Below are positions 14,732 through 33,953 of a DNA stretch of 50,872 bases, piece by piece. The notes beneath the pieces are model-generated. The model was not told the DNA's origin and made no database searches. It saw only the letters and a program-made list of their open reading frames with translations. A program made the position numbers and the translations under genes. Positions within the stretch are counted from its first letter, which is position 1. Each line of letters opens with the position of its first letter. This DNA is from Ignavibacteria bacterium (GTDB lineage Bacteria; Bacteroidota; Ignavibacteria; Tepidaquicellales; OLB5), in contig JADZAP010000055.1 of the NCBI GenBank assembly GCA_020852705.1, positions 1 through 50,872 of the forward strand. The letters are read 5' to 3'.

Positions 14732-14783
14732 TGCAAGCGACCAAATTATTTTTCGCTTAAATTCCAAATTATTTTTCGTTTCA
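14732..14783. promoter_or_regulatory. Left prophage end with two transposase-binding repeats (L1, L2)
   Basis: CCAAATTATTTTTCG occurs at 14741-14755 and 14764-14778, exactly 23 bp apart (about two helical turns). The L2 copy, extended to CCAAATTATTTTTCGTTTC, is the perfect reverse complement of the R2 site at 45438-45456. Paired sites of this kind at each end are what MuA-type transposases bind. Confidence 0.85.
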
Positions 14784-14784
14784 T

Positions 14785-14835
14785 AAAAATAAAAATGCTG
14801 ATTTTTAGCCAAAAATCAAAGCCAAAAACCAGCAT
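14785..14835 (-). terminator. Terminator of the leftward late operon
   Basis: On the minus strand GATTTTT-GGCT-AAAAATC (14817-14800) forms a 7-bp hairpin followed by AGCATTTTTATTTTT. An outer ATGCTG/CAGCAT pair (14795-14800, 14830-14835) encloses it. Confidence 0.7.
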
Positions 14836-14846
14836 AAAACCCACTT

Positions 14847-15377: not shown

Positions 15378-15394
15378 TGTTTTATGATCTAAAT

Positions 15395-15853
15395 TTATGG
15401 AAGACCAGTGGAGACTGTTCCGCTGGATAAATCAATTTTTATTGTGCCATCTTCATTGTTTGCAAATACAATGTATGGAGATTTATAATAAATTGTGACA
15501 GCTTCATCTCTAAACCCCAATGGGTTATTTAACTGAACTTCAAATTCAGAGAGATGCTGTCTTTGCAAAGAAGTCAGTAAATTCTGAACATTTATTTCAG
15601 ACTGGTTATTTGCATTTTTACCCAGAGTTATCCCACTATTAACATGAGTCAATATTCCGGAATTTTTATTTATCTGAATTCTTGCAGTATCTCTGACCAC
15701 AAGCTTGAAGTCTGTAGAGTTGCTAAGTAAATAATTATCTTTGCCAAAATACACAGCATCTTCAGCTGTGGAATATCCTGAGAACATTCCCACTGCAATA
15801 ATTATAAATGCAATAGCATTAAATACAGTGAGAGCTTTATAATATTTATTCAT
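15395..15853 (-). CDS. Exported phage protein of unknown function
   Basis: A 152-residue protein with an N-terminal signal peptide or anchor (KALTVFNAIAFIIIAVGMFS). The rest is beta-rich, with a Ser/Thr/Asn-rich part (VNSGITLGKNANNQSEINVQ) like the repeats of tail-fibre or fibre-tip proteins. It lies 14 bp after the fibre-like gene, in the same operon. I do not recognise a family. A role next to the fibre protein is inferred from position only. Confidence 0.65.
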   Translation of the reverse strand: MNKYYKALTVFNAIAFIIIAVGMFSGYSTAEDAVYFGKDNYLLSNSTDFKLVVRDTARIQINKNSGILTHVNSGITLGKNANNQSEINVQNLLTSLQRQHLSEFEVQLNNPLGFRDEAVTIYYKSPYIVFANNEDGTIKIDLSSGTVSTGLP

Positions 15854-15867
15854 TTTAAATCCTTCCT

Positions 15868-16998
15868 TTATTGCTGATAAGTTAACGAAGTATTGACAAC
15901 CCAGCCAGCTACTATATCAGAAGAGCCAAATGTTATGAGTGTATTGCTGACAGAATTTACAATGTTATTTGCATTGACAGTGGTGAAGCTTCCTGAGCCA
16001 GTATGAGTGAAAACACAATTTTCAAACTGTGAGCCATTAAGCGATATATTAGGAGCATAATTATCTTCAATAGTTCTGACAGAGCAATTTATAACAATCA
16101 TTTTCTGAAATGTGATATTTGCATCAGTCTGCTCAAAATTCAGATTAACACATTTTACATTCCTATCAGTCATCCCTCCGCTTCTGGTAAATATGGAATA
16201 GGGTGGCTCATTAAAAGTGTTTTTAATTGAGACATATCCCATTCCTATCATATCTATGTAGTCATACCAGACCCAGTTATCAGTATATATACCATTGTGA
16301 CCTGGCAATATAACAATAAGCCATCTGTTATTAGAAGTGGGCGAGCCGGAGAGATATGCATAACTTACAGCTTCTGAAATCGTGTTGTAAATTTTACCGG
16401 AAACATCAGTGGTCTGTTTTGAATCCACTATGATTCTATTTGCATTAACAGGGAAATAGCCACCACCGACAGACTGAATAAAGTTATCAACAACCCATTT
16501 TTTCCATACAAGAGAATTATTGTCTTCCGGAGTTCCAGCAATATATTCAGCTGAGCCTGTATTTATTTTTGGAGCTTCTATTGTGGCTGTGGCTGTGATT
16601 GAAACTGCATCAGAGAATGTAGTGTTATCCTGGAAAGTGTTTAATCCAGTCCATGTATTATTGCAGCTTATACATCCGAAGTATGTCCTGTCATCCCCAG
16701 CAAGTTTTGTCCCATACCATTCCTGGAGTGTTCCTGAAATATACAGTCTAACTGGCTCATAGGAAGGGAATCCATAAACAAGATAATTCCCAGTTGCATT
16801 CCCACCAGGCTGAGTGACAGTCAAGCCGGAGATCACATCTCCAGCTCCATAGGGAGACCTTCTGAATTTAATCTGTGTATCTGTGTAACCATTTATAAAA
16901 GCTCCAGTGTTATCCACCAGCTGAAGAGACATTTCAAGCTGAGCAAATGTGCCTGAAGCAATTAAAAGTAAAATGAGTGTTAAAAATATTTTTTTCAT
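15868..16998 (-). CDS. Fibre-like / beta-helix phage protein with a signal peptide
   Basis: A 376-residue protein. It starts with a typical signal peptide (LTLILLLIASGTFAQ). About residues 110-155 (NNTWTGLNTFQDNTTFSDAV) resemble the WTGxNTFxxNTTF strands of phage tail fibres. Residues about 185-376 look like a right-handed beta-helix with short Asn/Ser-rich rungs and a pectin-lyase-like flavour. A receptor-binding fibre would fit the position after the tail genes. A cleavable signal peptide is unusual for a virion part, so it may instead be displayed on the lysogen's surface. The exact role is uncertain. Confidence 0.6.
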   Translation of the reverse strand: MKKIFLTLILLLIASGTFAQLEMSLQLVDNTGAFINGYTDTQIKFRRSPYGAGDVISGLTVTQPGGNATGNYLVYGFPSYEPVRLYISGTLQEWYGTKLAGDDRTYFGCISCNNTWTGLNTFQDNTTFSDAVSITATATIEAPKINTGSAEYIAGTPEDNNSLVWKKWVVDNFIQSVGGGYFPVNANRIIVDSKQTTDVSGKIYNTISEAVSYAYLSGSPTSNNRWLIVILPGHNGIYTDNWVWYDYIDMIGMGYVSIKNTFNEPPYSIFTRSGGMTDRNVKCVNLNFEQTDANITFQKMIVINCSVRTIEDNYAPNISLNGSQFENCVFTHTGSGSFTTVNANNIVNSVSNTLITFGSSDIVAGWVVNTSLTYQQ

Positions 16999-17002
16999 TT
17001 TA

Positions 17003-17413
17003 TTAATTAATTAGTTTTAAAAAAGTATCTATTTTGTTTTTAGCAAGCTCAATTGTTTTAGGTTTTGTATTTTGCAGCTTTGCAAAGTGGGAGCTTGTGA
17101 CTCCAATCTTAATTAAAAATTCTGCATGGTTAATTATTATTTTTCGTTTTATACCTTCATTTATTTCAGCTTTAATGCTATTGTAGTATTTACCGAGATT
17201 AACATAGTGAGTTCTACAAATTTCATTATACATTGAATGATGGTTATGCCTGAAATGTGTTATTATATTAGCCAGCCAGTTCAATTTTTCATCCCGATGG
17301 AAGACACTAAATAAATAATTAGACCCACAGACCAGCTTATGGCAGACAGGACAGTAAATAAATTTATCGTTAAAATAAGAATCAGTGTCAATATGAGTTA
17401 ATTGAATATTCAT
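17003..17413 (-). CDS. Small protein with a C2H2-like zinc site, unknown function
   Basis: A 136-residue protein with CPVC at residues 21-24 and HFRHNH at 53-58, a spacing that could bind one zinc ion. The C-terminal half is helical and basic (GVTSSHFAKLQNTKPKTIEL looks like a degenerate helix-turn-helix). Its start codon overlaps the stop of the methyltransferase gene, so they are translationally coupled. DNA binding is plausible but not shown. Confidence 0.65.
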   Translation of the reverse strand: MNIQLTHIDTDSYFNDKFIYCPVCHKLVCGSNYLFSVFHRDEKLNWLANIITHFRHNHHSMYNEICRTHYVNLGKYYNSIKAEINEGIKRKIIINHAEFLIKIGVTSSHFAKLQNTKPKTIELAKNKIDTFLKLIN

Positions 17414-18009
17414 TAATTAAACCATTTCAAAATTGTTTCACCACAATATCCTTTTTGCCAAATATACCAGGCATAACACCTGGCTGAATTTTCTGAGTAT
17501 TTAGAGAAGTCTCCATTCTTTGCACAGTTCAGCCTTGAGCTGCTAACATATATTGTCTGGGGGGGAGCTTCTCTGAATAAATATTTTCTCTTTTTACCTT
17601 CCACAAACTGAATGCCCATGAATAAAGCAATTTTATTTCCTTCCGGAATAATCTGCAAAGCTTTCCTGACAAAGTCTTCACTGTATTTATATGGTGGGTT
17701 TGTGATTATATCTCCATCCCATTCAAGCACATCAATACTTAAAAAATCTTTAAGCTCTTGTGAGTAACCTCTGTCAATAATATCTGAGCTTCTCACATTA
17801 TAGCCAGCATTTTTTAATACTTCAGATAAATGACCAGCTCCACAAGCACATTCCCAAATATTAGAATTGAATTTTTCCAGTTTCAATAATTCAATCAAAG
17901 CTTTTGGCTCAGTAGCATAAAAATCATAAGTTTCACGATCTTCCACAGCATGAGCTGAAGAGCCCAGTGTTTTAAAAACAGAATTATTATTGCCAGTCCA
18001 GTCCTTCAA
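17413..18009 (-). CDS. Phage DNA adenine-N6 methyltransferase (class I, NPPY motif)
   Basis: A 198-residue SAM-dependent methyltransferase. The SAM-binding motif I is ECACGAGHL (residues 53-61) and the catalytic motif IV is NPPY (104-107), the signature of amino-methylating DNA enzymes. The N-terminal DFYATEPKALIELL is typical of phage adenine methyltransferases. No restriction partner is nearby, so it is an orphan enzyme. It probably modifies phage DNA late in infection to resist restriction, placed near the left end much like Mu's mom modification gene. The target sequence cannot be read from the protein. Confidence 0.85.
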   Translation of the reverse strand: MKDWTGNNNSVFKTLGSSAHAVEDRETYDFYATEPKALIELLKLEKFNSNIWECACGAGHLSEVLKNAGYNVRSSDIIDRGYSQELKDFLSIDVLEWDGDIITNPPYKYSEDFVRKALQIIPEGNKIALFMGIQFVEGKKRKYLFREAPPQTIYVSSSRLNCAKNGDFSKYSENSARCYAWYIWQKGYCGETILKWFN

Positions 18010-18016
18010 AAATATT

Positions 18017-18262
18017 CTACACTTCCCATTTAATATTGTTATCTATATACTCAGCTCTCAAGAGCTCTGAAGCCTGGTCTTCATTTAAGCCAGCAATCAT
18101 TTCAAGGAATTTCACAAAGTAACCTCTGTCAATCCTTCTTGTAATATTCCCTTTTTTTACATAAGCTTTTAAGCCAGTAGTAAAAATAAAACCATGAAAT
18201 ATAGAGCCAGCATAAATATGCTGTGGGATAATTACATATTGCAGATTTTTCACTCTTCTCAT
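18017..18262 (-). CDS. Small phage protein, unknown function
   Basis: An 81-residue basic protein (MRRVKNLQYVIIPQHIYAGS...). Its start overlaps the last base of the upstream gene's stop, and the methyltransferase gene starts 7 bp downstream, so it is a tightly packed operon member. No motif is recognised. Confidence 0.6.
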   Translation of the reverse strand: MRRVKNLQYVIIPQHIYAGSIFHGFIFTTGLKAYVKKGNITRRIDRGYFVKFLEMIAGLNEDQASELLRAEYIDNNIKWEV

Positions 18263-18783
18263 TACTGCACCTGTCCTTTTGCCGGAGCTTCATGTGTTCC
18301 ACCAATATTTTCAGCATAAGTAGTCATATTAGTCATGTTAATATTCAGAATAGGCTCAGCATTTGTGAAAGCTATTTCAAAGCCCTTATTAGTAGTGTCA
18401 TCATATAAATCAAAATAAGATTCTGTATCAATATCTCTCTCTTCATCAATTATGAGAGCTTTGAATTTTCTTGAGCCGTTATCCAGATGGACTTGCAGAT
18501 AAATCTCCCATCCGGTAATTTCAAGATTTTCAATCTCTCCATAATTCAACAAGTCCGGAGCAATTATTTCATTCACATGAGATATGCTCCACCTATAATT
18601 TACATGGTGAGATATTTTGCTCTTGCTGCCGTCATCCCACTCAAAGACTGTGGTTTTTCTCTGGTAAGTTTCTGTGAGCTTTGCAAAATGTCTGGAAAAA
18701 TTAAAAACTCTGTCAGCTTCACCATTTTTTTTGCAAGTGACTTTAATCTGCTTACATCCATTTATATAAAGTTTATCAGCCAT
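18262..18783 (-). CDS. Phage tail-region protein, unknown function
   Basis: A 173-residue, beta-rich acidic protein (VFEWDDGSKSKISHHVNYRW, WEIYLQVHLDNGSRKFKALI). It has no signal peptide and no recognised domain. It lies between a large tail protein and the small coupled gene at 18017, 1 bp apart from its upstream neighbour. A role in the distal tail or as a fibre chaperone is inferred only from position. Confidence 0.62.
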   Translation of the reverse strand: MADKLYINGCKQIKVTCKKNGEADRVFNFSRHFAKLTETYQRKTTVFEWDDGSKSKISHHVNYRWSISHVNEIIAPDLLNYGEIENLEITGWEIYLQVHLDNGSRKFKALIIDEERDIDTESYFDLYDDTTNKGFEIAFTNAEPILNINMTNMTTYAENIGGTHEAPAKGQVQ

Positions 18784-18784
18784 T

Positions 18785-20185
18785 TTATTTTTCTATAAGT
18801 TTAATCTGCATTTTTTTGTCATTTTCATCAAGCTCAGCTCCCACAAGCCACCAGTCTCTTCCTTTAAAATTATTGACTGAGACTGCATATTTTGCATTAG
18901 CATTATATTCAGTTTCAAACTGACAATTTTTTTTCCTTCCATTAGCCAGATACTCATTATTTCTCATTATTACATGCAATACAAGATTAAAACCACTATC
19001 ATAATAATTCCCACCTGGATCATGCTGCCAGCCTAAAACAATACATCTTGCAAAGGAGACATATACTTTATAGCCATTGACATCTTTCCAGTATGCAAGA
19101 GAATCCATTTCAAGCAAATTCCTTTTATGAGCTCCAAAACCTCTGACCGGAAATGCATAGGCTTCCTCCTGGTATGACCTGACAAGAGCAATATCAGTAT
19201 TAATAAGAGCCGGATTCAAGTCTGCATTAAGGCTTGTATATCCTGAGAATTTTTCTTTTGTTCTTATAAAATAATAACCATATCTTCCACTAACATATTG
19301 AGCCGGATCATTAGGCAATTCGTATCTTGTGAGTAAATGAATAAATGATTCCTTCTCTGAGACAGTAATTCCTTCAGTATAATTTTTTGTTTTTGTAATT
19401 GTAATAGCAGAATTATTAAGAACAGGAAAAAATATTTTTACATAGTAAGTTCTGAAGCCGTTTACAGTTTGCTGTGGCTGTGGATCAATACGCCATGCAG
19501 CTCCTGTCTCAAGAACATAAGCCTGAAATACATCCCATGCAGATTTTGCTCCCAGTTCTGTTCCAAGCAGCTGACCCAGCCAAGCATTATATAAAGGAAC
19601 AGACAAAAAGGGAACTGTGTTTAATGGATGGGCTTGATTCCATTGTGGATGTTCAAATCTTAAAACAGGATTCCCTGCAATATAAGGATCAAATATCTCC
19701 GTAATATAAAAAGTGTGGTCTTCCGGATTAGGATGTCTTTTTGAAAATGTTCCCTTCAGATACTCTTCAAGATGCTTCTCAAAAGAGACTACATTGCACT
19801 CAATAGAATACTCTCCAGGATATAATTTCAGAATAATTGATTTTACATCAATCTCTCCAGCCCATTGAATATTTTGAAGAGAAGTTCCATAATAAAGCCA
19901 GTATGCATAATTGAGAGTATTGTCAGACTCAAGGAATTGCTGAATGGTTTTTCCTTCATTTGAAATAAAGTCATCCGTGACCGCAAAGTTTACCTTAAAA
20001 TCATTTGCATACCATTTTAATGGCTGACCTGGCTGGCTTCTCTCTATAGGTATCACATTATTTGCTCTCAACATTTTTGTAAAGAGAATATAATCTTTTA
20101 CAGCATTATTATTTTGATAAGTTGCATTAAAATAATTAGGCTTAGTATTAAAATTATTATATACTTTTTGAATTAAGCAATGCAT
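18785..20185 (-). CDS. Probable distal tail / baseplate-type protein
   Basis: A 466-residue protein encoded directly downstream of the tape measure (1 bp apart). That is where siphophages keep distal-tail and tail-tip proteins. The sequence is rich in beta strands and aromatic residues (LKLYPGEYSIECNVVSFEKH at about residues 120-140), a pattern seen in distal-tail-like proteins. No named domain is certain. The final part (NYDSGFNLVLHVIMRNNEYL-like region) could be a carbohydrate-binding sandwich. The call is positional with moderate confidence. Confidence 0.55.
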   Translation of the reverse strand: MHCLIQKVYNNFNTKPNYFNATYQNNNAVKDYILFTKMLRANNVIPIERSQPGQPLKWYANDFKVNFAVTDDFISNEGKTIQQFLESDNTLNYAYWLYYGTSLQNIQWAGEIDVKSIILKLYPGEYSIECNVVSFEKHLEEYLKGTFSKRHPNPEDHTFYITEIFDPYIAGNPVLRFEHPQWNQAHPLNTVPFLSVPLYNAWLGQLLGTELGAKSAWDVFQAYVLETGAAWRIDPQPQQTVNGFRTYYVKIFFPVLNNSAITITKTKNYTEGITVSEKESFIHLLTRYELPNDPAQYVSGRYGYYFIRTKEKFSGYTSLNADLNPALINTDIALVRSYQEEAYAFPVRGFGAHKRNLLEMDSLAYWKDVNGYKVYVSFARCIVLGWQHDPGGNYYDSGFNLVLHVIMRNNEYLANGRKKNCQFETEYNANAKYAVSVNNFKGRDWWLVGAELDENDKKMQIKLIEK

Positions 20186-20186
20186 A

Positions 20187-22619
20187 TCAATTCATTGACT
20201 TCCTTCCTAAACTCAGGCTTTCAAGTATAAAGCCATCTTTGTATATCTCCTGTTTAAAGTTCCTGTCAATTTTCCTTCCATTGATATAAAGATTTGAATT
20301 AGCGGAAGACATTGCAGCTGAGACTATCCCACCGGAATTGTAATGACCGGCAATTGCCGGAGTGAGAGAGCCACCATTGAGCCAGTTAATAAAATTCCAT
20401 CCGTATTGAGAGACAAGCTCATTAACTCTTGACTTTTTAATGACAGCTTCTCCTGGAGTCAGCATTGCCGGAACAGTGTCAGAGCTTGAGATCACAGAAT
20501 TAGTTCCTGAGCTGAAGCCCAGAATTGTGGTGAATATAGAAACCATTGAGCCAAAAATATCCCCAAAGCTCAAGCCTTCATCAGAAGAGCTTTTTTGAGC
20601 AAGATTAATTGCTTGCTGAGCCATCTTTAATGCAAGGCTGATATATTTTAAAAATGATTTACCGCCATTTTCCAATTTAGAAGCAAGAGCATCAACCAAA
20701 CTGAGACTTGAAGCCAGAACTGAGTTTATTTCACTATACATTTTAGCAATTCTTTCAGCTTCCTTCTTTGCCTGTTCCTCAAGCTCATCAAGATATTTTT
20801 TAAACCACTCCAAATGTTTTTTCATCTCTTCACTCAGATCAATATCAATAATAACTTTGGGCTGACCCAGAATCATTTTTGTCATGTCAAATATCTGCTT
20901 ATGAATATCCTTCCTTACAGCAAGAACTTTATTTTCCTGTTCAAGTGTGCTTAAATTAAGCTTGCTGAGGTCAATCAGCTGAAGCTGGCTCTGAAGGAAT
21001 TCAGCTGTAAGAGTATTTTTATATTTTCTGTTCTCAATCTCTTCTCTCACTTTTTTAAGAAGTTCATCAAGAGCTTTATTCTCTTTGTCAGTTACACTTT
21101 CATTTGAGCCAGTTCCTGTGGAAGTTTTTGGTGAAGATGTCACTGGGTTTTTCTTTGGTGGTGGTGGTGGGTATGGATATTGTGGCTCTGAGCCAGTGAG
21201 CTCCTGAGTAACCGGAGAGCTGTCACTTGAAAATGCATTGAACAAAGCAGTGACCGGAGAGCCATAAAATAGAATTTTCCCAGCCGGAGAGTTTGCAAAA
21301 TCCATTATCATTTTTATTGCATTCTTGACCTGAGTTAAAAGGAATGAAGTGACATCCACCACTTTGCTTAAAATTGCAACTTCAATTTTAAATATCCAGA
21401 ATGCTATTTCATACAATGCTTTGCCTATCTTAGAGAGCTGGTCAATAAGTGGGGGATTTTGCTGAATAAAATCTCTAAAAGATTTTACCAGGTCAAGAAT
21501 ATAGGGAAGAGCTTCTCTGGCTTTACTGAGAAGGAATTCAACTCCGTTTTTAACCAGGTCAATGAGAGACCTTTTAAAGTCATCAGCTGCTTTTTGACCT
21601 CCCATAGTAGCTGAGATCATTTGCAGAACTTCTTTATAAAAGCTCAGGATTTTTTCAGCTGCACTCTGAATGACCGGAAGCAAATCCATAAAGAAGCTTA
21701 CAAATTTAGAACCAGCTCCGGCAACAAAGCCACCGATTTTCTCAAAAACCTCTCCCATCTGATTTTTGAGAATTTGCCATTTACCTGCAAAAGTAGAGCC
21801 CACAGTCTCAGCCATCCCTTTAAAATTCTGGTCAAGGATTTTGCTGAGATATATCGCCTGTTCAGTTCCTTTAAGAGATTTAAGCTTTGCTTCCTGTTCC
21901 TGAGTAAAAGCCACTCCAACTCTTCTTAGAGTTCCGAGGGTCTCTTCATTGACCTTACCCAGCATGACAGCAACTTGCTGCACATCCATCTGACTTTCAC
22001 CATTCTGCATAAAAGCAGCTGCAAGGTCAAGAATTCTGGGAGTTAATATTTCAATCTCTTCAGAGCTCTTCATGAAAGTAGTCAGCATTGACTGAGCATT
22101 CATGATGCTTTCATCAGAAAATGGAGTTTTAAGCTGGAGCTGAGAAGCCTGAGAAGTCAGTCTTCTGTAAGCATCCATTCCTTCACCAACATTTTTCAGA
22201 CCATTCATGAGCTTTGCGGAAGCCACTTCAGATTTGTTAAATTCATCAGTAACAAAATTCAAGCCTCTCTGAACATAATTTAATCCCTGTCTTACATAGC
22301 CTAAAACAAGGGTAAAATTCAGAAGCTTTCCGCTGAAGCCGGAACTTGCAGCTGAAACTTCATTTGTGGAAGCTACTGTCTTTTTTTGCTCAGCCTGTGT
22401 TTGTTTAAGCTCAGTCTGGTATTTGTCAAGAGTGTTATCCAGCTTTTTAATTTCAGCATCAAGCTTGTCAAATGAAAAAGTGGGTGGCTTCAGCTTAAAA
22501 ATATCATTAATATTTTTAGCTCCCATTTGTGCAATTTTCTGAGCTGTCTTTATTCCTTCTGAAAATGGTCTGACATCCAGAGTTAATATTGCAGCAATAT
22601 TTCCAATGTTAGTGCTCAT
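20187..22619 (-). CDS. Tail tape measure protein
   Basis: An 810-residue protein that sets tail length and is packed inside the tail tube. The N-terminus (GNIAAILTLDVRPFSEGIKT) is a standard tape-measure start, and helical stretches run through about residues 40-90 and 560-650. There are hydrophobic segments near the middle, a proline-rich linker (PYPPPPPKKN) at about 480, and the usual end VPAMLTPGEAVIKKSRVNEL followed by GWNFINWLNGG. It follows a tail chaperone gene with a frameshift, exactly the order seen in long-tailed phages. The length would predict a tail of roughly 120 nm. Confidence 0.88.
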   Translation of the reverse strand: MSTNIGNIAAILTLDVRPFSEGIKTAQKIAQMGAKNINDIFKLKPPTFSFDKLDAEIKKLDNTLDKYQTELKQTQAEQKKTVASTNEVSAASSGFSGKLLNFTLVLGYVRQGLNYVQRGLNFVTDEFNKSEVASAKLMNGLKNVGEGMDAYRRLTSQASQLQLKTPFSDESIMNAQSMLTTFMKSSEEIEILTPRILDLAAAFMQNGESQMDVQQVAVMLGKVNEETLGTLRRVGVAFTQEQEAKLKSLKGTEQAIYLSKILDQNFKGMAETVGSTFAGKWQILKNQMGEVFEKIGGFVAGAGSKFVSFFMDLLPVIQSAAEKILSFYKEVLQMISATMGGQKAADDFKRSLIDLVKNGVEFLLSKAREALPYILDLVKSFRDFIQQNPPLIDQLSKIGKALYEIAFWIFKIEVAILSKVVDVTSFLLTQVKNAIKMIMDFANSPAGKILFYGSPVTALFNAFSSDSSPVTQELTGSEPQYPYPPPPPKKNPVTSSPKTSTGTGSNESVTDKENKALDELLKKVREEIENRKYKNTLTAEFLQSQLQLIDLSKLNLSTLEQENKVLAVRKDIHKQIFDMTKMILGQPKVIIDIDLSEEMKKHLEWFKKYLDELEEQAKKEAERIAKMYSEINSVLASSLSLVDALASKLENGGKSFLKYISLALKMAQQAINLAQKSSSDEGLSFGDIFGSMVSIFTTILGFSSGTNSVISSSDTVPAMLTPGEAVIKKSRVNELVSQYGWNFINWLNGGSLTPAIAGHYNSGGIVSAAMSSANSNLYINGRKIDRNFKQEIYKDGFILESLSLGRKSMN

Positions 22620-22633
22620 TACTGAAATTAATT

Positions 22634-22963
22634 TTAATTATCTTTTATTGCATACCATTGAATGAAAGCTTCCTTGTCATTTATCAGCTGGCTTATCTGA
22701 ATAAAGCTTAATGTTTTATTCATTGCCTGTTCCTCTGTTAAATTATATTTTTTGCAAAGCTGTTCAATCAGTTCCTCTTCTGTTCCTTTTATGTAAGCCG
22801 GAGATTTGCTTTCAAGGAATTTTTTATATTTTGCATAATCAATATAAAATTTAGCATCCGGCTTCCATGTCTCATTTTTATCCGGAATTATTCCGGCTGG
22901 GAATCCAGACCGGATTTTCCAATCCCTAACTTTTTGCTCAGTGAGGGAGATAAAATAAAAAAA
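22634..22963 (-). CDS. Frameshift extension (T part) of the tail assembly chaperone
   Basis: In the -1 frame, reading continues from the slip site for 107 codons to TAA at 22636-22634. It gives a plausible protein with DWKIRSGFPAGIIPDKNETW and helical LTEEQAMNKTLSFIQISQLI. A TGA in the -1 frame lies directly upstream of the slip site, and there is no good independent start codon. It is therefore best explained as the C-terminal part of a 213-residue fusion with the preceding gene. This matches the G/GT tail chaperone design of lambda and many siphophages and fills the otherwise empty gap before the tape measure. Confidence 0.75.
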   Translation of the reverse strand, partial: FFYFISLTEQKVRDWKIRSGFPAGIIPDKNETWKPDAKFYIDYAKYKKFLESKSPAYIKGTEEELIEQLCKKYNLTEEQAMNKTLSFIQISQLINDKEAFIQWYAIKDN

Positions 22964-23274
22964 TCATTTGCAATATTTATTATCTCCTCTCTTGTCAGAT
23001 TTTCCCAGTCAGCTTTGTATTTGTCAGACTTCAATGCTTCCGGAACAGATTCAACATCAAGGATAATATCAATTGCATCAAGCAGAATATCTTCATTAAT
23101 AAGCTTCTCAATTAAATCAGTGACCTTCATGCTTTCCTTCAGGTCAGTAAGAGTGTTAATGTTCAGCTTTGTCAGAACAGTTTTAATAAGCTGCTTATCT
23201 GTTTTATATGTTGCTTCTTTTTGTGAAGCTTTTACTCCACACTTAAACTGGTAATCTTTTTTCTCTAAATTCAT
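22888..23274 (-). CDS. Tail assembly chaperone, short (G-type) form
   Basis: A 128-residue, helical, charged protein with no recognised domain, located just upstream of the tape measure gene. Its last third is overlapped by the -1 frame extension. In siphophages the short product and a small amount of the frameshifted long product together coat and fold the tape measure during tail assembly. The 0-frame end after the slip site (ILSPSLSKKLGIGKSGLDSQ) looks less protein-like than the -1 frame. Confidence 0.72.
   Translation of the reverse strand: MNLEKKDYQFKCGVKASQKEATYKTDKQLIKTVLTKLNINTLTDLKESMKVTDLIEKLINEDILLDAIDIILDVESVPEALKSDKYKADWENLTREEIINIANDFFILSPSLSKKLGIGKSGLDSQPE
22957..22963 (-). 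promoter_or_regulatory. Slippery heptamer T TTT TTT for programmed -1 frameshifting
   Basis: On the minus strand the 0-frame codons are GAT TTT TTT ATT. T TTT TTT fits the X XXY YYZ rule exactly in phase. After the slip, decoding continues TAT TTT ATC TCC for 107 codons. Confidence 0.72.
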
Positions 23275-23323
23275 AATATTAGTTTTTGAATAATGTTAGT
23301 TTGTATTATTGTTTTATATTTTA

Positions 23324-23358
23324 AGTGCTCTCTCTTACTATTATTCAGAGAGAGCACT
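23324..23358 (-). other. Perfect 12-bp intercistronic hairpin in the late operon
   Basis: AGTGCTCTCTCT (23324-23335) and AGAGAGAGCACT (23347-23358) pair with no mismatch around an 11-nt loop. No T run follows in either direction. It lies between two late genes and shares its outer GTGCTC/GAGCAC with the hairpin at 29433. It could be an mRNA processing or stability element or a protein site. Confidence 0.6.
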
Positions 23359-23388
23359 GTATAAGCAATATGATCAAGAAAAGCTGTT

Positions 23389-23976
23389 TTATAATTTTAA
23401 ATGATACTGCTTTCCGGTTTTAAAGACCGGAGCAGCAAGCCCAAAATCATAAGGTAATGAATTTAATATTGCTCCTTTTGCTTTTGGGACTTTCCTTACT
23501 GTCACATAGCTTACATCAGTTAAATTCACAGCATTGCTTCTGACAATCAGAATTTTTCCGGCTGCGTAATTCACTTTATAAAAGACAGTAGTGCTTGCTC
23601 CTGGAATAATTACACCATTTGACTGTGTGGGAGTTGTAAAAATACTTACAGAATTTGTGTCATTCACTTTGCTTAAATATGCCAGAGTTTTAGTGGCTGT
23701 ATTTATAGCACCATCAGCAAATCCTGCTTCAATATAAACCTTGAATGTGTCAGTTCCGCTTCCGGCTGAGTCATAAGCTTCAATATATGTATCATATCCA
23801 GGCTCAAGTGTTATCTCAAAAGTGCTGTCTCCGGAAGTGAATCTGTGGCTCTCCACCAGGTCTCCGGTTTTATTATATGCAATTGCATCAGAGCTGTAGA
23901 AACCGGCTGCAAGCAATACAGTGCATAAAACCATGACTGTGAAGATTGCCTTAATAAAAAAGATTTTTTTTCTCAT
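23389..23976 (-). CDS. Exported beta-rich phage protein between tail tube and tail chaperone
   Basis: A 195-residue protein with a clear signal peptide or anchor (FTVMVLCTVLLAAGFYSSDA). A beta-sandwich-like Thr/Ser/Asp-rich body follows (FEITLEPGYDTYIEAYDSAG). The position, downstream of the tail tube gene, is that of a tail-decoration protein, yet it carries an export signal. It may be a surface-displayed accessory factor. I do not recognise the family. Confidence 0.62.
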   Translation of the reverse strand: MRKKIFFIKAIFTVMVLCTVLLAAGFYSSDAIAYNKTGDLVESHRFTSGDSTFEITLEPGYDTYIEAYDSAGSGTDTFKVYIEAGFADGAINTATKTLAYLSKVNDTNSVSIFTTPTQSNGVIIPGASTTVFYKVNYAAGKILIVRSNAVNLTDVSYVTVRKVPKAKGAILNSLPYDFGLAAPVFKTGKQYHLKL

Positions 23977-24020
23977 TACGAATTTTATTTTGGTTTATGA
24001 AATAATGTTAAAATTGTTTT

Positions 24021-24548
24021 TTAAGCAGCAATTGTTTCAAGTATGATATAAAAAGGATTTTTCCCAGTGACCGGAGAAGCTCCTGAAGCATAAGCATCCG
24101 CTGGAAGACCTGTGTCCGGAGTCACAGAAACATTTGCAGACTGAGCCACCACAGAAAACTCAAGATTTAAAACCTGATGCTTACCGCCTTCCATGTCAAG
24201 CTTCAGTTTTTCAATAGGCTTCATTTCAGGAAGATAAAATTCCTGGTCTGCTCCCAGTTCGTCTCTTCCGTTGTAGAAGTAACCTTCCACAGAAGTATTG
24301 AGAATGTCATCAATTTGATCCATTATCTCCTTTGCAACCTGAGAGAGAACTACACTTAAAGTGCATGACCGCTTTGAAGCTTTTTTGTGTGAGTTCCCAT
24401 CTGCATGAGTGATCTCAATTGAGTCAGCCATTTTTTCCAGAGAGCCGGAAACTATGTTTCCCAGTGTAAGCCAGGAGCTTCCCACTTTTATCTGAAAATT
24501 ATTTCCGGAATTAATTTTTTCCTGTTCAGTGTTTTTTGTTATTGCCAT
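24021..24548 (-). CDS. Probable major tail tube protein
   Basis: A 175-residue protein of mixed beta strands. The N-terminal FQIKVGSSWLTLGNIVSGSL, the central ITHADGNSHKKASKRSCTLS and the regular strands after it (KLDMEGGKHQVLNLEFSVVA) resemble lambda-gpV-type tail tube proteins. It lies upstream of the tail chaperone and tape measure, the usual order. An acidic, flexible C-terminal tail follows. The family is inferred from pattern and position. Confidence 0.62.
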   Translation of the reverse strand: MAITKNTEQEKINSGNNFQIKVGSSWLTLGNIVSGSLEKMADSIEITHADGNSHKKASKRSCTLSVVLSQVAKEIMDQIDDILNTSVEGYFYNGRDELGADQEFYLPEMKPIEKLKLDMEGGKHQVLNLEFSVVAQSANVSVTPDTGLPADAYASGASPVTGKNPFYIILETIAA

Positions 24549-24566
24549 TTAGCTATAAAATTAAAT

Positions 24567-24845
24567 TTATGAATTAGTGTTTTTAACTTTTGGAGCTTCA
24601 GGCTTTGAGACCAGGCTCTCTGTCAATTCCTTGTCAGAATTAAAGAGCTTCTCTTCAGGTCTTGTAATTCCCAGAGCATCCTGAAGCCTGTATTTTATAA
24701 ACTGATTGCTCTGAGCTGATTTAAGCTCCGTATCTTTTGCAGCCACTGAAGCAATTACTTCAATAACCTTAGAGCTTTTTATTACGCCATTGTTAGCAAG
24801 ATAAAAAGCTGTGTCTCCGATATTAAATTTTGTTGTTATTGTCAT
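24567..24845 (-). CDS. Small phage protein with an SH3-like start
   Basis: A 92-residue protein. The N-terminus (KFNIGDTAFYLANNGVIKSS) looks like the small SH3-type barrel of many Bacteroidota phage proteins, followed by a helical and then disordered tail. It lies 18 bp upstream of the tail tube gene. The function is unknown; a head-tail joining or regulatory role is possible. Confidence 0.55.
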   Translation of the reverse strand: MTITTKFNIGDTAFYLANNGVIKSSKVIEVIASVAAKDTELKSAQSNQFIKYRLQDALGITRPEEKLFNSDKELTESLVSKPEAPKVKNTNS

Positions 24846-24849
24846 TTGA

Positions 24850-25515
24850 TTAATAAAATGGTTTATAAATAAATTCAGCTTTTAAGTCAGTTTTATCCAG
24901 AATGCTTCCCTCTGATTTGCTGAGGTCATAAACAAGACCAGCATTAAAATGAAATTTTTCCATGTAATTAAAACCAGTAAGAAGCTGCACATTATGAGTG
25001 AATTTATTTTTTATATCATTCACTTTCCTTTTGTGCTCATATCCAAAAATAAAGGGGCTGAAGTAAAATCTTTTTGACTTCACAAAAAGCTTTCCATGCT
25101 GGGATATAATTTCAAAGTCTCTTCCTATTCCCACATAAATGCTCTCTTTTAAAAGAGTATCATTCATATTAATAGTATATGCTGTGATCTGGTCTGCTTT
25201 TTTTTCCAGCTTCATGACTAAGTCAAGCTTCTTTGCTTTATTAATAAAGACAGTGTCAACCTTCTGAAAATTTACGATCACCGGCTCAGACTTTTTATAA
25301 ACAATTTTTTCATGCCATTTTATGACTGTATCAGCTTTAGTGACCACTCTCTCAATGACAGTTGTATCATATTTATAAATTGTAGTTCCTGAAGTAGAAC
25401 TGTAATCAGAGCCACCACAGCTGAGGTCTTTTAAAAAGAAAAACCAGACACAGAAAATGAATACAAGCACTGCAATAATTCTTGCTATCCATATAGAAGT
25501 CATTGATTGCTGCAT
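24850..25515 (-). CDS. Membrane-anchored protein next to the endolysin (spanin-like candidate)
   Basis: A 221-residue protein with one N-terminal transmembrane segment (IARIIAVLVFIFCVWFFFLK). A charged, extended periplasmic part and a beta-rich C-terminus follow (FYFSPFIFGYEHKRK, HFNAGLVYDL). Its start overlaps the stop of the amidase by one base. Spanins, which fuse inner and outer membranes at the end of lysis, are usually encoded here. The C-terminal part could reach the outer membrane. The call rests on topology and context. Confidence 0.5.
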   Translation of the reverse strand: MQQSMTSIWIARIIAVLVFIFCVWFFFLKDLSCGGSDYSSTSGTTIYKYDTTVIERVVTKADTVIKWHEKIVYKKSEPVIVNFQKVDTVFINKAKKLDLVMKLEKKADQITAYTINMNDTLLKESIYVGIGRDFEIISQHGKLFVKSKRFYFSPFIFGYEHKRKVNDIKNKFTHNVQLLTGFNYMEKFHFNAGLVYDLSKSEGSILDKTDLKAEFIYKPFY

Positions 25516-26081
25516 TATTCAGTCACTTCCTTTCCGGCTGAATGTGCCTGAAGCTCTTCATCAGTCTCCGGCTCTCCATCTTCACCATCCACAGCTTCAG
25601 CCTGTTCAGCAAGTTCAGGCTTTGGATTTATTGCAGATTTTTCCCAGTTAAGTTTTTCCTGAACACTATTCAGGAAGTCAGCTGCTTTCCTTACTTTGAA
25701 GCAAGGACATGCTTTTGCAACACCTGGAAAATCATTGTGACCATAAATGTCATCTGTGCTCAGGTCATATCTGTATAAAACCTGTGCAGTGATCCACTCA
25801 AGAGAATTCTTTTGAGCTAATGTCATATATTTACCATAAGGAGCATCAGACTGAGTGTCACTTCCTCTGGATATATATGCAATTCCTATATTGCCGGAAT
25901 TATGACCACCGACATGAGCTCCGACCTGGCTCTCAGGTCTTCCAGCATGAATGACTCCTTCTTTGTCAACAAGCCAGTGATAACCAATGTCTTTCCATCC
26001 CTGAGCTTTATGGGCTCTCCTTATGGATTCCACTGTTCCCTCAGAAGCTGTAATGTGAATAGTAACTTTATTTATTTTCAT
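25515..26081 (-). CDS. Endolysin: N-acetylmuramoyl-L-alanine amidase (Amidase_2, T7 lysozyme type)
   Basis: A 188-residue zinc amidase that cuts peptidoglycan between MurNAc and L-Ala at lysis. The zinc ligands are visible as His9 (VTIHIT), His115 (YGHNDFPG) and Cys125 (KACPCF). Tyr34 in GYHW and Lys123 match the catalytic Tyr and Lys of T7 lysozyme. It has no signal peptide, so it needs a holin, which is encoded directly upstream. The last 40 residues are acidic and look disordered. Confidence 0.92.
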   Translation of the reverse strand: MKINKVTIHITASEGTVESIRRAHKAQGWKDIGYHWLVDKEGVIHAGRPESQVGAHVGGHNSGNIGIAYISRGSDTQSDAPYGKYMTLAQKNSLEWITAQVLYRYDLSTDDIYGHNDFPGVAKACPCFKVRKAADFLNSVQEKLNWEKSAINPKPELAEQAEAVDGEDGEPETDEELQAHSAGKEVTE

Positions 26082-26392
26082 TGCTTCACCTCACTTTTTT
26101 CTGAGTTCACAGTTCTCTCTCCAAATGTCTGGATAAATTTTCCAGTGGTGGGGATTCCCAGAATCCCAAATGTCAGGAATGTTAATTCCTTGAGCACAGA
26201 AACATCCGGCTGAATAACAGTCTTCACTCCGGCTGTTTCAATTATTACAGGCTGCATATTAACAGCCATAATAATAATTGTAATCACAAGAGCAGTCACA
26301 AGAAGGAAGCACAGAAAATATATCCCTCTCATAATGGAATAAGCTCCAGTGTCATCCCTTAAAAAATCTGATAAATTATTTTTCATATTCAA
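26078..26392 (-). CDS. Holin-like protein with two membrane segments
   Basis: A 104-residue protein with a first hydrophobic segment at about residues 22-45 (GIYFLCFLLVTALVITIIIM) and a second at about 70-88 (LTFLTFGILGIPTTGKFI), both flanked by charges. The start overlaps the end of the upstream membrane gene and the end overlaps the amidase start (4 bp each). Size, topology and coupling to the amidase suggest the holin that times lysis. Confidence 0.7.
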   Translation of the reverse strand: MNMKNNLSDFLRDDTGAYSIMRGIYFLCFLLVTALVITIIIMAVNMQPVIIETAGVKTVIQPDVSVLKELTFLTFGILGIPTTGKFIQTFGERTVNSEKSEVKQ

Positions 26393-26703
26393 TCTCCATT
26401 AAATTCTAATGAGTCAGCCTCAAATTTTATTTTCTCTTTTTTCAAAAGCTTGTCAATTTTATTATTGACCACTGTCACTTTCCTGAAGAGCTCTCTCTGG
26501 TTATATTCCTGAGTCTTTTTGTAATCATAAAAAGTGTCAGCTTCAAGTTTATCAGATTGAAGAGCTTTGATTTCATGATTAGTATCACTTGCAAATGAAG
26601 CAACATAAAATGTTCCTATTGCAACCAGGCAAAGCAAAGACCATAAAACAGCAAGAGGAACATTTATTCTGGTTTTTTCCGTGATTGAATTAGACTGACT
26701 CAT
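26389..26703 (-). CDS. Single-span membrane protein with coiled coil in the lysis cassette
   Basis: A 104-residue protein with one transmembrane segment (VPLAVLWSLLCLVAIGTFYV) followed by a charged helical stretch (residues 42-95) that should form a coiled coil. That is the build of an inner-membrane spanin (i-spanin) or of a holin partner. It overlaps the holin-like gene by 4 bp. No lipoprotein partner is embedded in it as far as I can see. Confidence 0.55.
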   Translation of the reverse strand: MSQSNSITEKTRINVPLAVLWSLLCLVAIGTFYVASFASDTNHEIKALQSDKLEADTFYDYKKTQEYNQRELFRKVTVVNNKIDKLLKKEKIKFEADSLEFNGD

Positions 26704-26739
26704 TATAAAATAAAAATTATATATTCAGGTTAATTAAAT

Positions 26740-27102
26740 TTAATTTTCAATTCTTACATCTCTTGCTTCCAGGTATTGACCCAGATCATGCTTCCTTACT
26801 TCAGCAAAAGCAGCTCTTTTGTCTTCAGCTTCCACTATGACATATTTTTTCAGTGTCACATAGCAAGTGAATTTTTTCTTTGCTGATGGCTCAGATTCCG
26901 TAGCTTTGCTGCTATCCGGAGTTTGCTGAGCTAACTGTGAGCCTGGAATGAATATCTCTCCGGCTGTTAATAAATAAATGATATTTGCTCCACCATCAAT
27001 GTCTTCAGTGAATGAAGCTCCGTTTGTTTTTGCAAGCTCAATCTCTTCTTTGGTAAACTCTCCCAGAAGAGTGTTATCCTTATAGACTTTAAATTTTTCC
27101 AT
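26740..27102 (-). CDS. Late phage protein of unknown function
   Basis: A 120-residue protein in two halves. The N-terminal half (FKVYKDNTLLGEFTKEEIEL) and C-terminal half (FTCYVTLKKYVIVEAEDKRA) are separated by a Ser/Thr/Pro/Gln linker. It lies between the capsid terminator and the lysis genes. I do not recognise the family; a small head-completion or regulatory protein is possible. Confidence 0.55.
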   Translation of the reverse strand: MEKFKVYKDNTLLGEFTKEEIELAKTNGASFTEDIDGGANIIYLLTAGEIFIPGSQLAQQTPDSSKATESEPSAKKKFTCYVTLKKYVIVEAEDKRAAFAEVRKHDLGQYLEARDVRIEN

Positions 27103-27120
27103 GTGAATGATTTTAGAAGT

Positions 27121-27148
27121 TTAAAAAATTTGCCTGTCTGTTCCAGGC
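27121..27148 (-). terminator. Terminator (or attenuator) after the major capsid gene
   Basis: On the minus strand GCCTG-GAACAGA-CAGGC is followed by AAATTTTTTAAA. A second hairpin, CCTTCA/TGAAGG, lies just upstream (27155-27172). A weak stop after the capsid gene would give more capsid than downstream products, as in many phages. Confidence 0.6.
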
Positions 27149-27211
27149 TGTCAACCTTCAAAACTATGAAGGATTTTCTCAGCTATGTCAGTTATGTCAA
27201 GTAATTTTCAA

Positions 27212-28021
27212 TTACAATGATTTGATCACACAGGCAAATTCATTGCCATCAAGCTCAGCTGCTCCATGTGCAAGAAGATCAACTGCATCCCCTAACACTG
27301 TGGGCTGATAAGCTTCTTTTATTTCACCTTCATTTGAAAGTATGAAAGCAAGTCCTTCCTGATGCCATGCCACAATATTGGTTTTCCCGCCAATTGTGGG
27401 AACAAGTCCTGAAATGACCCATTTAGCTCCCAGCATTTCATTTGCTTCTCCGGCTCTCAGAGCTTTCATATTGAATCCGATTGCTGTTTTTATAACATCA
27501 ATCTCATAAAAGTCCTGTTCAAGAGCTGAAGGGATGACAATAACTCTGTTCTCTTCCGGAACTTCATTGTCATCAAAGTGCTTCAGAATCCTGGAAAAAT
27601 CCCTGAAGGAGATTTGAGCAGCAGCTGCCGGAATTATATTTGTAGTAGCCTGAGCTGCTTCAATAACGTCTTTATTAAACTGTCTCTTTAATGCAAGAGC
27701 CATTGAAATTTCATACTGAGTCCTCAGCATGTCATTGCTTTCAAACTTTGCAGCCATCTGAGCAAGAATAGGAACTGCATAAACATCCAGAGCAGTAGTA
27801 ACCATTGAAGTGTCATCTTTGGTTTTTTTTCTGTCTGCATCGTCAGCAGCTGTGCCTGTATTTTTTTTGACCACCATGCTTGCAAGCTTAGGTCTAACGA
27901 CTTCAGTTGCTCCAGGCTGAACAAGTGAGTCATAACTTCTGTTTGTCAGCTGATAAAGACCTTTGTCTTCCATGCATCTTAAAATCACATTATCAGCTGT
28001 TACCTGTTTATTCCAAGCCAT
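27212..28021 (-). CDS. Major capsid protein
   Basis: A 269-residue protein encoded right after the protease/scaffold gene, the standard order in Mu-like phages. Its features fit a coat protein of HK97/P22 type: a helical spine region (AAKFESNDMLRTQYEISMAL), the LKHFDDNEVPEENRVIVIPS segment and a C-terminal strand region (AEANEM... WVISGLVPTIGG, FILSNEGEIKEAYQPTVLGD). The closing part, NEFACVIKSL, is typical of coat proteins. A terminator-like hairpin follows. I am confident in the role, less in the exact family. Confidence 0.8.
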   Translation of the reverse strand: MAWNKQVTADNVILRCMEDKGLYQLTNRSYDSLVQPGATEVVRPKLASMVVKKNTGTAADDADRKKTKDDTSMVTTALDVYAVPILAQMAAKFESNDMLRTQYEISMALALKRQFNKDVIEAAQATTNIIPAAAAQISFRDFSRILKHFDDNEVPEENRVIVIPSALEQDFYEIDVIKTAIGFNMKALRAGEANEMLGAKWVISGLVPTIGGKTNIVAWHQEGLAFILSNEGEIKEAYQPTVLGDAVDLLAHGAAELDGNEFACVIKSL

Positions 28022-28083
28022 TTTTTATTTTTTTTAGTTTATGAAAAAAGTTTTTATTTAACTGTGTTCAAAGCCGGAGCTTT

Positions 28084-28656
28084 TTATTTTTTGAAATAAG
28101 TTGACTGCTTCCTGAGCTCAGCAAGCTCTTCTGAAGTAAATTTCTTCTGGAGCTTAGCATCCTTAATCACTTCTTCATAAGTCAATGGAGTTCCATCAGC
28201 TTTTGTGAATTTAGGATCAGTAACATCCACAGCCGGAGCTTGAGCGTTTGTGTCAATCTGCTTTGAAGCAAGCGAAGGATGGACTGACATTGCTGAAATA
28301 GTTTTTTCAGCAAGCTCATAATTGCTTATTGCAAGCTCAACAAAAGAAGCTTTGTCAGCCGGAAGGATTTTCTTTGCTGCAATACCATTATTGACCAAGT
28401 CTTCAGCTCTTTTATTTTCAATATCACTGAGCCTGTTCTGAAGCTCTGTGAATTTTGGATCACCTGAGCTCTCTCCTGAAGGCTTTGTGATTTTGCCTTC
28501 AAGCTCAGTCACTTTGCTCTGAAGGCTTGTGACTGTGGCTGAAGTATCTGTGAAATGTTTCGTAATAGCTTCCTGAGCAGCTTCCTCAGTCACAAACTTT
28601 GAAGCATCTATTCCCACAGATGTCAGAATCTTTTTTGTGTTGTCTGTTAAATTCAT
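28084..28656 (-). CDS. Possible separate scaffold protein from an internal start
   Basis: Codon 194 of the protease gene is an ATG at 28656, placed after an Asn/Gln-rich linker and before a helical, charged region (residues 225-300) that would make a scaffold. In Mu the gpI protease and gpZ scaffold share a C-terminus in exactly this way. There is no Shine-Dalgarno sequence, but the A/T-rich context before the ATG is acceptable for Bacteroidota. Confidence 0.4.
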   Translation of the reverse strand: MNLTDNTKKILTSVGIDASKFVTEEAAQEAITKHFTDTSATVTSLQSKVTELEGKITKPSGESSGDPKFTELQNRLSDIENKRAEDLVNNGIAAKKILPADKASFVELAISNYELAEKTISAMSVHPSLASKQIDTNAQAPAVDVTDPKFTKADGTPLTYEEVIKDAKLQKKFTSEELAELRKQSTYFKK

Positions 28657-29217
28657 GTTTGAATTATTTTGGTTATTGAAATTATTTATTTGAAATGTAA
28701 ATGTCATTTTTGATTCAATTCTTGCAACATCAAACTTCTCTGAAGGCTCATAAGTAAATTTTTTCTGGTCATAAAATCCTGAAGAGAGAGTAAAATTTGA
28801 TTTATCCTGAAATGAGAACGGCTCAATTCCGTCAACAGCTGGTCTGTTAGTAAGACCCAGAGCTCCCAAATACCAGATTTTTTTTCCTGTGCTTAAAACA
28901 TACAGATATAATTCCACACTGGAATATTTGAACTTTTTATTCTGCACAAGCTCAAAGAACTCTTCTGAAATATGAGAGAATGCAATGTAAAGCTTTCCAT
29001 CTATTGCAATGACCGGATTAATCCATCCCAGAGCTTTCGGCTCTTCAGAGCCCAGTGTCTGAGATTTATCTTTATTGTGACCTATCCACACCGGAGCTTC
29101 TCTGAAGCGAGGATCATAATAGAATGCAATGTCAGCAACCTGGTCAGCTGTGAAGTTCCCTTGAGGGTAATTCCCAGCCGTAAAAACATGATAATATTTT
29201 ATTCCATTCAGAAGCAT
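28084..29217 (-). CDS. Head maturation protease fused to scaffold (Mu gpI-like)
   Basis: A 377-residue protein from the ATG at 29217 (a TTG at 29235 would add six residues). Residues 1-185 match the Mu I-type prohead protease: GNYPQGNFTADQVADIAFYY, APVWIGHNKD (candidate catalytic His), KALGWINPVIAIDGKLYIAF, YSSVELY (candidate Ser) and LGALGLTNRPAVDGIEPFSF. An Asn/Gln-rich linker leads into a coiled scaffold region (TSLQSKVTELEGKITKPSGE). It cuts scaffold and itself during capsid maturation and is the first gene of the leftward late operon. Confidence 0.85.
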   Translation of the reverse strand: MLLNGIKYYHVFTAGNYPQGNFTADQVADIAFYYDPRFREAPVWIGHNKDKSQTLGSEEPKALGWINPVIAIDGKLYIAFSHISEEFFELVQNKKFKYSSVELYLYVLSTGKKIWYLGALGLTNRPAVDGIEPFSFQDKSNFTLSSGFYDQKKFTYEPSEKFDVARIESKMTFTFQINNFNNQNNSNMNLTDNTKKILTSVGIDASKFVTEEAAQEAITKHFTDTSATVTSLQSKVTELEGKITKPSGESSGDPKFTELQNRLSDIENKRAEDLVNNGIAAKKILPADKASFVELAISNYELAEKTISAMSVHPSLASKQIDTNAQAPAVDVTDPKFTKADGTPLTYEEVIKDAKLQKKFTSEELAELRKQSTYFKK

Positions 29218-29432
29218 GAGCAAGTATAAAAGCAAATCAATTTTTATACTACTCTATGCATCCTATTTAAAGCCTATTTTGGATAAATAGCCATTAATAT
29301 AGAGCTGTCATATTTTATCTTTGTTCCGTTGACTTAATCAATCTGAACACAATGAAAATTCACTTTGATTTATTAAATAATTTTCAGGAAGGATGGAGCA
29401 AATGAAACTTCATTAATCTCAAAATTTTATGA

Positions 29433-29466
29433 GTGCTCAGGTATATTGCCTGAGCACAATTTTTTA
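29433..29466 (+). terminator. Strong hairpin with T tract between the divergent late operons
   Basis: GTGCTCAGG (29433-29441) and CCTGAGCAC (29449-29457) pair perfectly around a 7-nt loop, followed by AATTTTTT. It looks like a rightward terminator but stands 12 bp before the first gene of the rightward late operon, so it may act as an attenuator or antitermination site. The whole gap (29218-29477) must also hold promoters for both late operons. A TATCTTTG (-7-like) is visible on the + strand near 29317, without a clear -33 element. Confidence 0.6.
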
Positions 29467-29477
29467 AATTGTGTTTA

Positions 29478-29885
29478 ATGATAAAAGAAATATTTGACCA
29501 GCTTATTGCGGATATAAAAGCCGGAGTTACTGAGCTGGAGCTTGTGGAGCAATACAATGGAGAGTTTGAGGAAGGCACAGACTGGAATCCCAGAGCTTCA
29601 GCATGTTTCATCCAGCTTACAGGATTTAAGCCAGTGGTCAAGCATTCAGATGGAAGCTCCGGAAAGTCACAGGTCATATTTAAAATTTATACCGGAGCAA
29701 ATAAAAAACAGAATAAGAGTGCTATGGATATTACTGAGGGAGTTATTGAGCTTTTAAATGGCTCTAAGCTTACCATTGAAAGCTCCGGAAAAACTTACAT
29801 AATGACCATTATGGCTGAAGGAATGGATTTCATTTCATATCAGCAAGGCTTTGAAGCTTATGTGTTCAGTTTAAGTGTAGTTTAA
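29478..29885 (+). CDS. Mu gp37-like tail protein (DUF1834-type)
   Basis: A 135-residue protein. The ATG at 29478 is preferred over an in-frame TTG at 29469, which lies against the hairpin. The N-terminal IKEIFDQLIADIKAGVTELE and the mid-part (FKPVVKHSDGSSGKSQVIFK) resemble gp37-type (DUF1834) proteins of Mu-like phages, which act at the tail end of the head-tail interface. It is the first gene of the rightward late operon. A 450-bp gap without a gene follows. Confidence 0.55.
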   Translation: MIKEIFDQLIADIKAGVTELELVEQYNGEFEEGTDWNPRASACFIQLTGFKPVVKHSDGSSGKSQVIFKIYTGANKKQNKSAMDITEGVIELLNGSKLTIESSGKTYIMTIMAEGMDFISYQQGFEAYVFSLSVV

Positions 29886-30337
29886 ATAGCTGGTTTTGAT
29901 ATGAAATCAAAAGTGAGTGTGTGAAATTTCAGGCTGTTTTTACAAAAAATGCAATTACAGCTTAAATATGCAAAATATGCTGTCAGTGCTTTTTTAAATG
30001 TGCTTAAAATCCATTTTCAAAAGTGACAAATTGAAGGCAAAAAGTATCAAATGAATTTTTAAAAATGACAATAACATTTTAAAAACCTCAAAAACAGAAT
30101 AAAAATGAGATACTTTTTTAATGCACTTTTACACAAAAGTGACAAATTTTGGAAATTATACAAGTATGCTATACCACCATTCCTGAGCACTTTTAAGGGC
30201 TTATAAACGATTTTAAAGCGTTTTTCAAATTTTGCATGACTGAAAATACTATGAAAATTAAATACCGTGTTTAAGGTTTATCACAATTTCAGTGAGCAAA
30301 AAAGTGTGTGAATAAATTTTTTAAAACGAAAAATATT
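29886..30337. other. Non-coding region at the exact midpoint of the prophage, with spaced direct repeats
   Basis: No convincing gene. CAAAAGTGA occurs three times (29908, 30018, 30134), about 110 and 116 bp apart. The last two copies extend to CAAAAGTGACAAATT. TTTTGAT/ATCAAAA (29894-29912) and AAAAAGTATC/GATACTTTTT (near 30040 and 30107) are inverted repeats. CCTGAGCAC near 30183 repeats an arm of the hairpin at 29433. The prophage midpoint is at 30131. Mu needs a strong gyrase site at its centre for replication, so this is a candidate for the same job. Confidence 0.5.
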
Positions 30338-32165: not shown

Positions 32166-32193
32166 TATTTTATAACTAAATTATATTTTAAAA

Positions 32194-33949: not shown

Positions 33950-33953
33950 TTTT

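Follow-up and report, generated by a model that had tools for sequence, protein, structure and literature searches.

The window (the whole 50,872-nucleotide stretch of DNA that was analysed) is contig 61 of a 2.9-Mb genome of an Ignavibacteria bacterium, and it carries a complete Mu-like prophage. The ends of the prophage, TGC at 14732 and GCA at 45530, lie between host genes. Each end carries two copies of the inverted terminal repeat CCAAATTATTWTTCG (at 14741, 14764, 45442, and 45507), which has 5 matches in the window vs 0.03 expected. The flanking match ATATTTATAT is 10 bp long and AT-rich; it is a candidate target-site duplication, longer than the 5 bp of Mu. The insertion point is immediately upstream of a hydrolase-like gene (45540); two paralogues of this gene lie to the left of the prophage (7646 and 12219). 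Several host proteins carry T9SS-like tails.

14732..45530: whole Mu-like prophage with TG...CA ends, 30,799 bp, flanked on both sides by ATATTTATAT
24021..24548, minus strand: probable major tail (tube) protein, 175 aa (phrog_1407, weak, E 0.054), whose homologues precede the chaperone in relatives
22888..23274, minus strand: zero-frame product, G-like tail assembly chaperone, 128 aa, with homologues in ten loci and a predicted fold resembling tail assembly chaperones
20187..22619, minus strand: tape measure protein, 810 aa (phrog_1272, E 3.5e-6), directly 3' of the chaperone

The Mu-like label given to this phage in an earlier note, made from the sequence of the window, is borne out by the Mu-type ends and by profile matches to Mu Gam (E 4.8e-25), the Mu portal protein (3.8e-65), F (3e-12), the I protease (6.8e-14), and a MuA-like rve domain (E 1.2e-6; at 29.2 bits, below the Pfam cut-off of 32.6). 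A virion-morphogenesis protein and a capsid protein are also encoded. The tail genes follow the order probable tube protein, chaperone, tape measure, the tube assignment being weak by profile. Between the capsid gene (27212) and the tape measure gene (22619) there is no minus-strand ORF longer than 221 aa and no sheath-sized gene, so the tail is most likely non-contractile and the phage probably siphovirus-tailed. A 195-aa ORF (23389-23976) between the tube and chaperone genes has a signal-peptide-like start, unusual inside a tail operon, and a homologue stands at the matching place in another genome, G007 (L023 8359-8877).

Overlapping reading frames at a slippery heptamer

The chaperone gene ends in two overlapping reading frames that are related by a run of seven T residues, and the features of this region are as follows.

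22957..22963, minus strand: slippery heptamer T TTT TTT (zero frame GAT TTT TTT), T7 or T8 in 10/10 loci
22634..22963, minus strand: -1 frame, T-like domain, 109 codons plus TAA, with profile homologues and third-position-biased substitutions
22964..22966, minus strand: TGA in the -1 frame abutting the heptamer, present in 4/10 loci
22984..22990, minus strand: AGAGGAG, Shine-Dalgarno (SD)-like candidate stimulator, 20 nt 5' of the heptamer (10-13 nt in six relatives)
22890..22956, minus strand: predicted two-hairpin RNA fold directly 3' of the heptamer (inner stem 22948-22923, second hairpin 22914-22892)
Predicted fusion junction peptide: spans ...NDFFYFISLTEQK

Read on the minus strand from the ATG at 23274, the zero-frame codons are ...AAT GAT TTT TTT ATT TTA TCT..., and the heptamer at 22963-22957 lies in exactly the phase that is needed for a two-tRNA -1 slip, as the earlier note had proposed. 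The -1 frame is without a stop from 22963 to 22637 and closes with a TAA at 22636-22634, just upstream of the tape measure gene. Of its 109 codons, 107 come after the two re-paired Phe codons, and the computed length of the predicted G-T fusion is 213 aa; both figures agree with the 107-codon open frame and the 213-residue product that had been claimed. The zero frame extends 22 codons beyond the heptamer, giving an overlap of about 69 nt, and the earliest ATG, GTG, or TTG of the -1 frame is found 240 nt downstream of the heptamer. The TGA immediately 5' of the heptamer arises from the AAT GAT codon pair.

Within the phage genes this combination stands out. T TTT TTT occurs in phase once among 7171 codon positions, and the other in-phase XXXYYYN sites open onto -1 frames of at most 18 codons. 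Runs of at least 109 codons in the -1 frame begin at 24 of the 7171 positions; the median run over all positions is 5 codons.

Conservation of the site among relatives

The -1 frame, used as a query, retrieved a decayed copy in the same genome and members in two other genomes, and a profile built on it matched nine genomes among the 391 genomes of the class that were searched. A second profile, limited to the part of the zero-frame domain that precedes the heptamer, matched these nine genomes and no others, and each of its matches abuts the -1 frame. A DNA-pattern scan of IMG/VR and 84,980 species genomes added one new member (IMGVR_UViG_3300028845_000345); apart from this, both frames were open only in loci that were already known, and pattern matches outside the known loci and L042 were rejected as chance, one or both frames being closed. 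No member outside the genus was found in a phylum-wide sample, and searches with the tape measure and the chaperone in viral_contigs and cultured phages gave no close relative. The comparison below therefore concerns ten loci, namely the window and nine relatives (eight same-class genomes and one IMG/VR contig), the latter with 22-34% protein identity to the window.

Two outlying arrangements are described here for completeness. The decayed copy (L009 6336-7842, on contig 34 of G000, beside a glmS-like gene) is a tandemly duplicated fragment: the N-terminus of a tape measure runs in frame into a chaperone T domain, after which comes a second tape-measure N-terminus, and there is no zero-frame chaperone in the vicinity. 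The tape measure search gave weak matches only (e.g., Bacteroides phage F4, whose chaperone pair has an A-run site). In this phage (L026 8073-8725) two overlapping hypothetical ORFs, the second in the -1 frame, precede the tape measure, with a long A run in the overlap; the pair is likely an unannotated chaperone frameshift in a cultured phage.

In all ten loci a T run follows GA in the same phase, with seven T residues in six loci, including the window, and eight in the remaining four (L011, L015, L016, and L017). The -1 frame is open for 94-119 codons, and the zero frame continues for 22-40 codons past the heptamer. The residues encoded around the site are DFF[IST]L[NS]P in the zero frame and FF[YF]xxS in the -1 frame, and D-F-F-x-L-N-P is the best-conserved stretch of the zero-frame protein. 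The earlier note had named conservation of the heptamer and the -1 frame in related prophages as a check, and an independent start of the second frame, or stops in it, as evidence against the frameshift; the heptamer and the frame are kept, in phase, in 10/10 loci, and neither such a start nor such stops were found in them. Its remark that a TGA directly precedes the heptamer stood for the window (22966-22964) and not as a general feature: the TGA is found in 4/10 loci, and in the others a -1 stop lies 1 to 16 codons further upstream, with no start codon between that stop and the heptamer. In four relatives (L010, L012, L015, and L135) the zero-frame ORF begins with a hydrophobic, membrane-like segment ahead of the chaperone domain, which may reflect start-site choice or a real extension.

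The same comparison bears on whether the two frames are one gene. They could be two separate genes, the second with a non-standard start, or one original gene in whose T run a sequencing or assembly error has broken the frame; homopolymer runs are prone to error, and the second frame is without a homologue of known function. Yet ten loci, from nine genomes and one virus record, share this frame relation, which an error could produce only by happening repeatedly. Moreover, no ATG, GTG, or TTG occurs in the -1 frame of any of the ten until at least 153 nt after the heptamer, and homology of the -1 frame starts at the heptamer itself (profile position 1). Separate genes or an error are thus very improbable.

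Nor is another direction of shift a serious contender. Mu itself uses a -2 shift (annotation; PMC5009743), and a +1 or Mu-style -2 shift could be imagined in place of -1. The frame that either would enter closes after 3 codons in nine loci, through a TAA inside the conserved TTAAATCC, and after 7 codons in the window, against 94-119 open codons in the -1 frame. Given this frame relation, the second domain can be read through a net -1 shift and no other, and the probability of a +1 or -2 shift is close to negligible.

A net -1 shift could also arise before translation, if RNA polymerase added one U on the T run and normal translation of the altered message then gave the same fusion. The site is a homopolymer, a single added U yields the same frame, and four loci do reach T8; nevertheless, 6/10 loci, including the window, have only T7, no run is longer than eight, and T7 is usually short for polymerase slippage. 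Every locus preserves the phase X XXY YYZ, and most have an SD-like sequence upstream at ribosomal spacing, which also speaks against slippage of the polymerase. Transcriptional slippage is accordingly considered improbable, if less so than the two preceding explanations, and ribosomal slippage is preferred.

Selection on both frames

In the closest pair of loci (L013 and L014), the differences in the -1 frame beyond the zero-frame stop number 6, 7, and 23 by codon position, and those in the zero frame before the site number 10, 5, and 47. This third-position bias indicates that both frames are protein-coding and under constraint; as judged from these substitutions, both are under purifying selection. 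The phage uses TTT for 159 of 230 Phe codons and GAT for 155 of 261 Asp codons. Given that Asp-Phe-Phe is required, the chance of GAT TTT TTT being kept in ten loci is about 3e-6 when independence is assumed, a figure that is a guide only, since the ten loci are not fully independent.

Predicted fold of the chaperone

Neither frame has a significant match to a Pfam or PHROG chaperone family. An AlphaFold2 model of the zero-frame product, built from ten sequences, consists of a beta hairpin and helices (pLDDT 74). Among viral models (Foldseek, BFVD), its best matches include two tail assembly chaperones of Arthrobacter phage Kitkat, with a probability of 0.98-0.99 but E-values of 0.03-0.05, which are weak. 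The top PDB row is the HK97 tail assembly chaperone 2ob9, also a weak match (Z 4.0, rmsd 4.7, 76 aligned). The model of the C domain is of low confidence (pLDDT 68) and has no PDB match. The zero-frame N domain is thus predicted to fold like tail-assembly chaperones; the single matches are weak and point in the same direction as the gene order.

Candidate stimulators of the shift

In eight of the ten loci, an SD-like sequence 5' of the heptamer is the best, or among the top 4%, of the anti-SD matches in its own gene. The mean anti-SD pairing in the stretch before the heptamer is -7.7 vs -2.6 kcal/mol. Resampling of synonymous codons in this stretch gives weaker pairing (mean -4.6, sd 0.9), and codon choice therefore adds to the signal, part of which stems from conserved Glu-Val residues. 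The test was devised post hoc, after the data had been seen, and no single locus is significant. Internal SD sequences of this kind are familiar from E. coli dnaX, where one stimulates a -1 frameshift. The likeness is in position, about 10-13 nt 5' of the heptamer in 6/10 loci (10 or 13 nt in each); dnaX differs in its slippery codons, the spacing is 16-19 nt in L010 and 20 nt in the window, and the SD here is putative.

Downstream of the heptamer, the 67-70 nt that follow it in the window fold with a z-score of -3.5 to -4.6, the lowest in a scan along the gene. RNA structure was rejected as a general feature, L011 and L017 being the only relatives with z below -2.

The anti-SD is intact in the genus, and 32% of mRNAs in Ignavibacteria have an SD (PMC10783764). 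Tentatively, and at odds that are short of even, the -1 shift of this lineage may be helped by the upstream internal SD-like sequence, together with a downstream hairpin that is stronger in L011 and the window, in which the SD is absent or too distant, though most gene starts of the window's phage are without an SD. If so, stimulation of frameshifting by SD pairing would be kept where SD-led initiation is uncommon.

Comparison with known systems and proposed mechanism

Long-tailed phages as a rule have a programmed -1 frameshift between G and T (PMC5009743), and that of lambda G/GT (Xu, Hendrix and Duda 2004, reviewed in PMC5009743) is the reference case. The locus resembles lambda in having a zero-frame chaperone with a -1 extension, placed between the major tail protein and the tape measure, and a -1 heptamer close to where the first gene ends. 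It differs in its heptamer, T TTT TTT(T), in having no detectable Pfam or PHROG chaperone match, and in a zero frame that runs 22-40 codons beyond the site.

The nearest parallels are the D3112-group Mu-like siphophages of Pseudomonas aeruginosa, in which a -1 G/GT frameshift at T TTT TTC has been predicted (PMC4378225); the novelty that the earlier note implied for such a frameshift in a Mu-like phage was overstated. When their sequences were re-read, D3112 had a T TTT TTC site with an 87-codon -1 frame, and B3 had C CCT TTC with a 93-codon -1 frame. The group shares with the prophage its Mu-like head and transposition genes and, probably, a non-contractile tail, and D3112 also has its -1 site on a T run encoding Phe-Phe. 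In contrast, the hosts of the group are Proteobacteria, and no homology between the window and D3112 chaperones was seen by profile comparison. Mu, with gp41 and its frameshift product, is likewise a Mu-like phage with a chaperone before the tape measure, yet it has a -2 shift and a contractile tail (annotation; PMC5009743).

The locus is best read as a G/GT gene for the tail assembly chaperone, carried by a Mu-like prophage that is probably siphovirus-tailed, the fusion being made by a -1 ribosomal slip on T TTT TTT (probability about 0.92). The heptamer and its phase, the open frame, its conservation, selection on both frames, the gene order, and the chaperone-like predicted fold support this reading; the order tube-chaperone-tape measure, the fold, and the ten-locus conservation all agree with the G/GT interpretation of the earlier note.

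Most ribosomes would remain in the zero frame and produce the 128-aa G-like protein. A minority, with tRNA-Phe in the P and A sites, would re-pair one base back on T TTT TTT and read 107 further codons in the -1 frame, yielding the 213-aa G-T fusion. If the two parts act as they do in lambda, the G part may bind the tape measure and the T part may recruit the major tail protein, and the ratio of the 128-aa to the 213-aa product may matter for tail assembly. We infer the occurrence and efficiency of slippage, the making of both products, and their binding roles. Counting against the reading, U_UUU_UUU supports only weak -1 shifting in E. coli constructs (PMC5009743), although a low efficiency is enough for lambda G/GT; the missing Pfam and PHROG chaperone matches, the weak fold matches, and the lack of a general downstream RNA structure also weigh against it. 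The lambda roles, with the tape measure bound by G and the tube protein by T, are those given in PMC5009743.

Implications for transposable phages

The observation is real and was correctly read, and the arrangement itself is already known from other phages. With it the G/GT rule reaches transposable phages in a bacterial class whose phage biology is little studied, and it does so through a chaperone family that goes unrecognised by Pfam and PHROGs. Around a poly-T slip site that stays unchanged, the proteins have diverged to about 25% identity. Annotation of these genomes will overlook the second frame or list it as an orphan. In addition, the SD-like element poses a question that can be tested, that of frameshift stimulation where SD-led starts are few.
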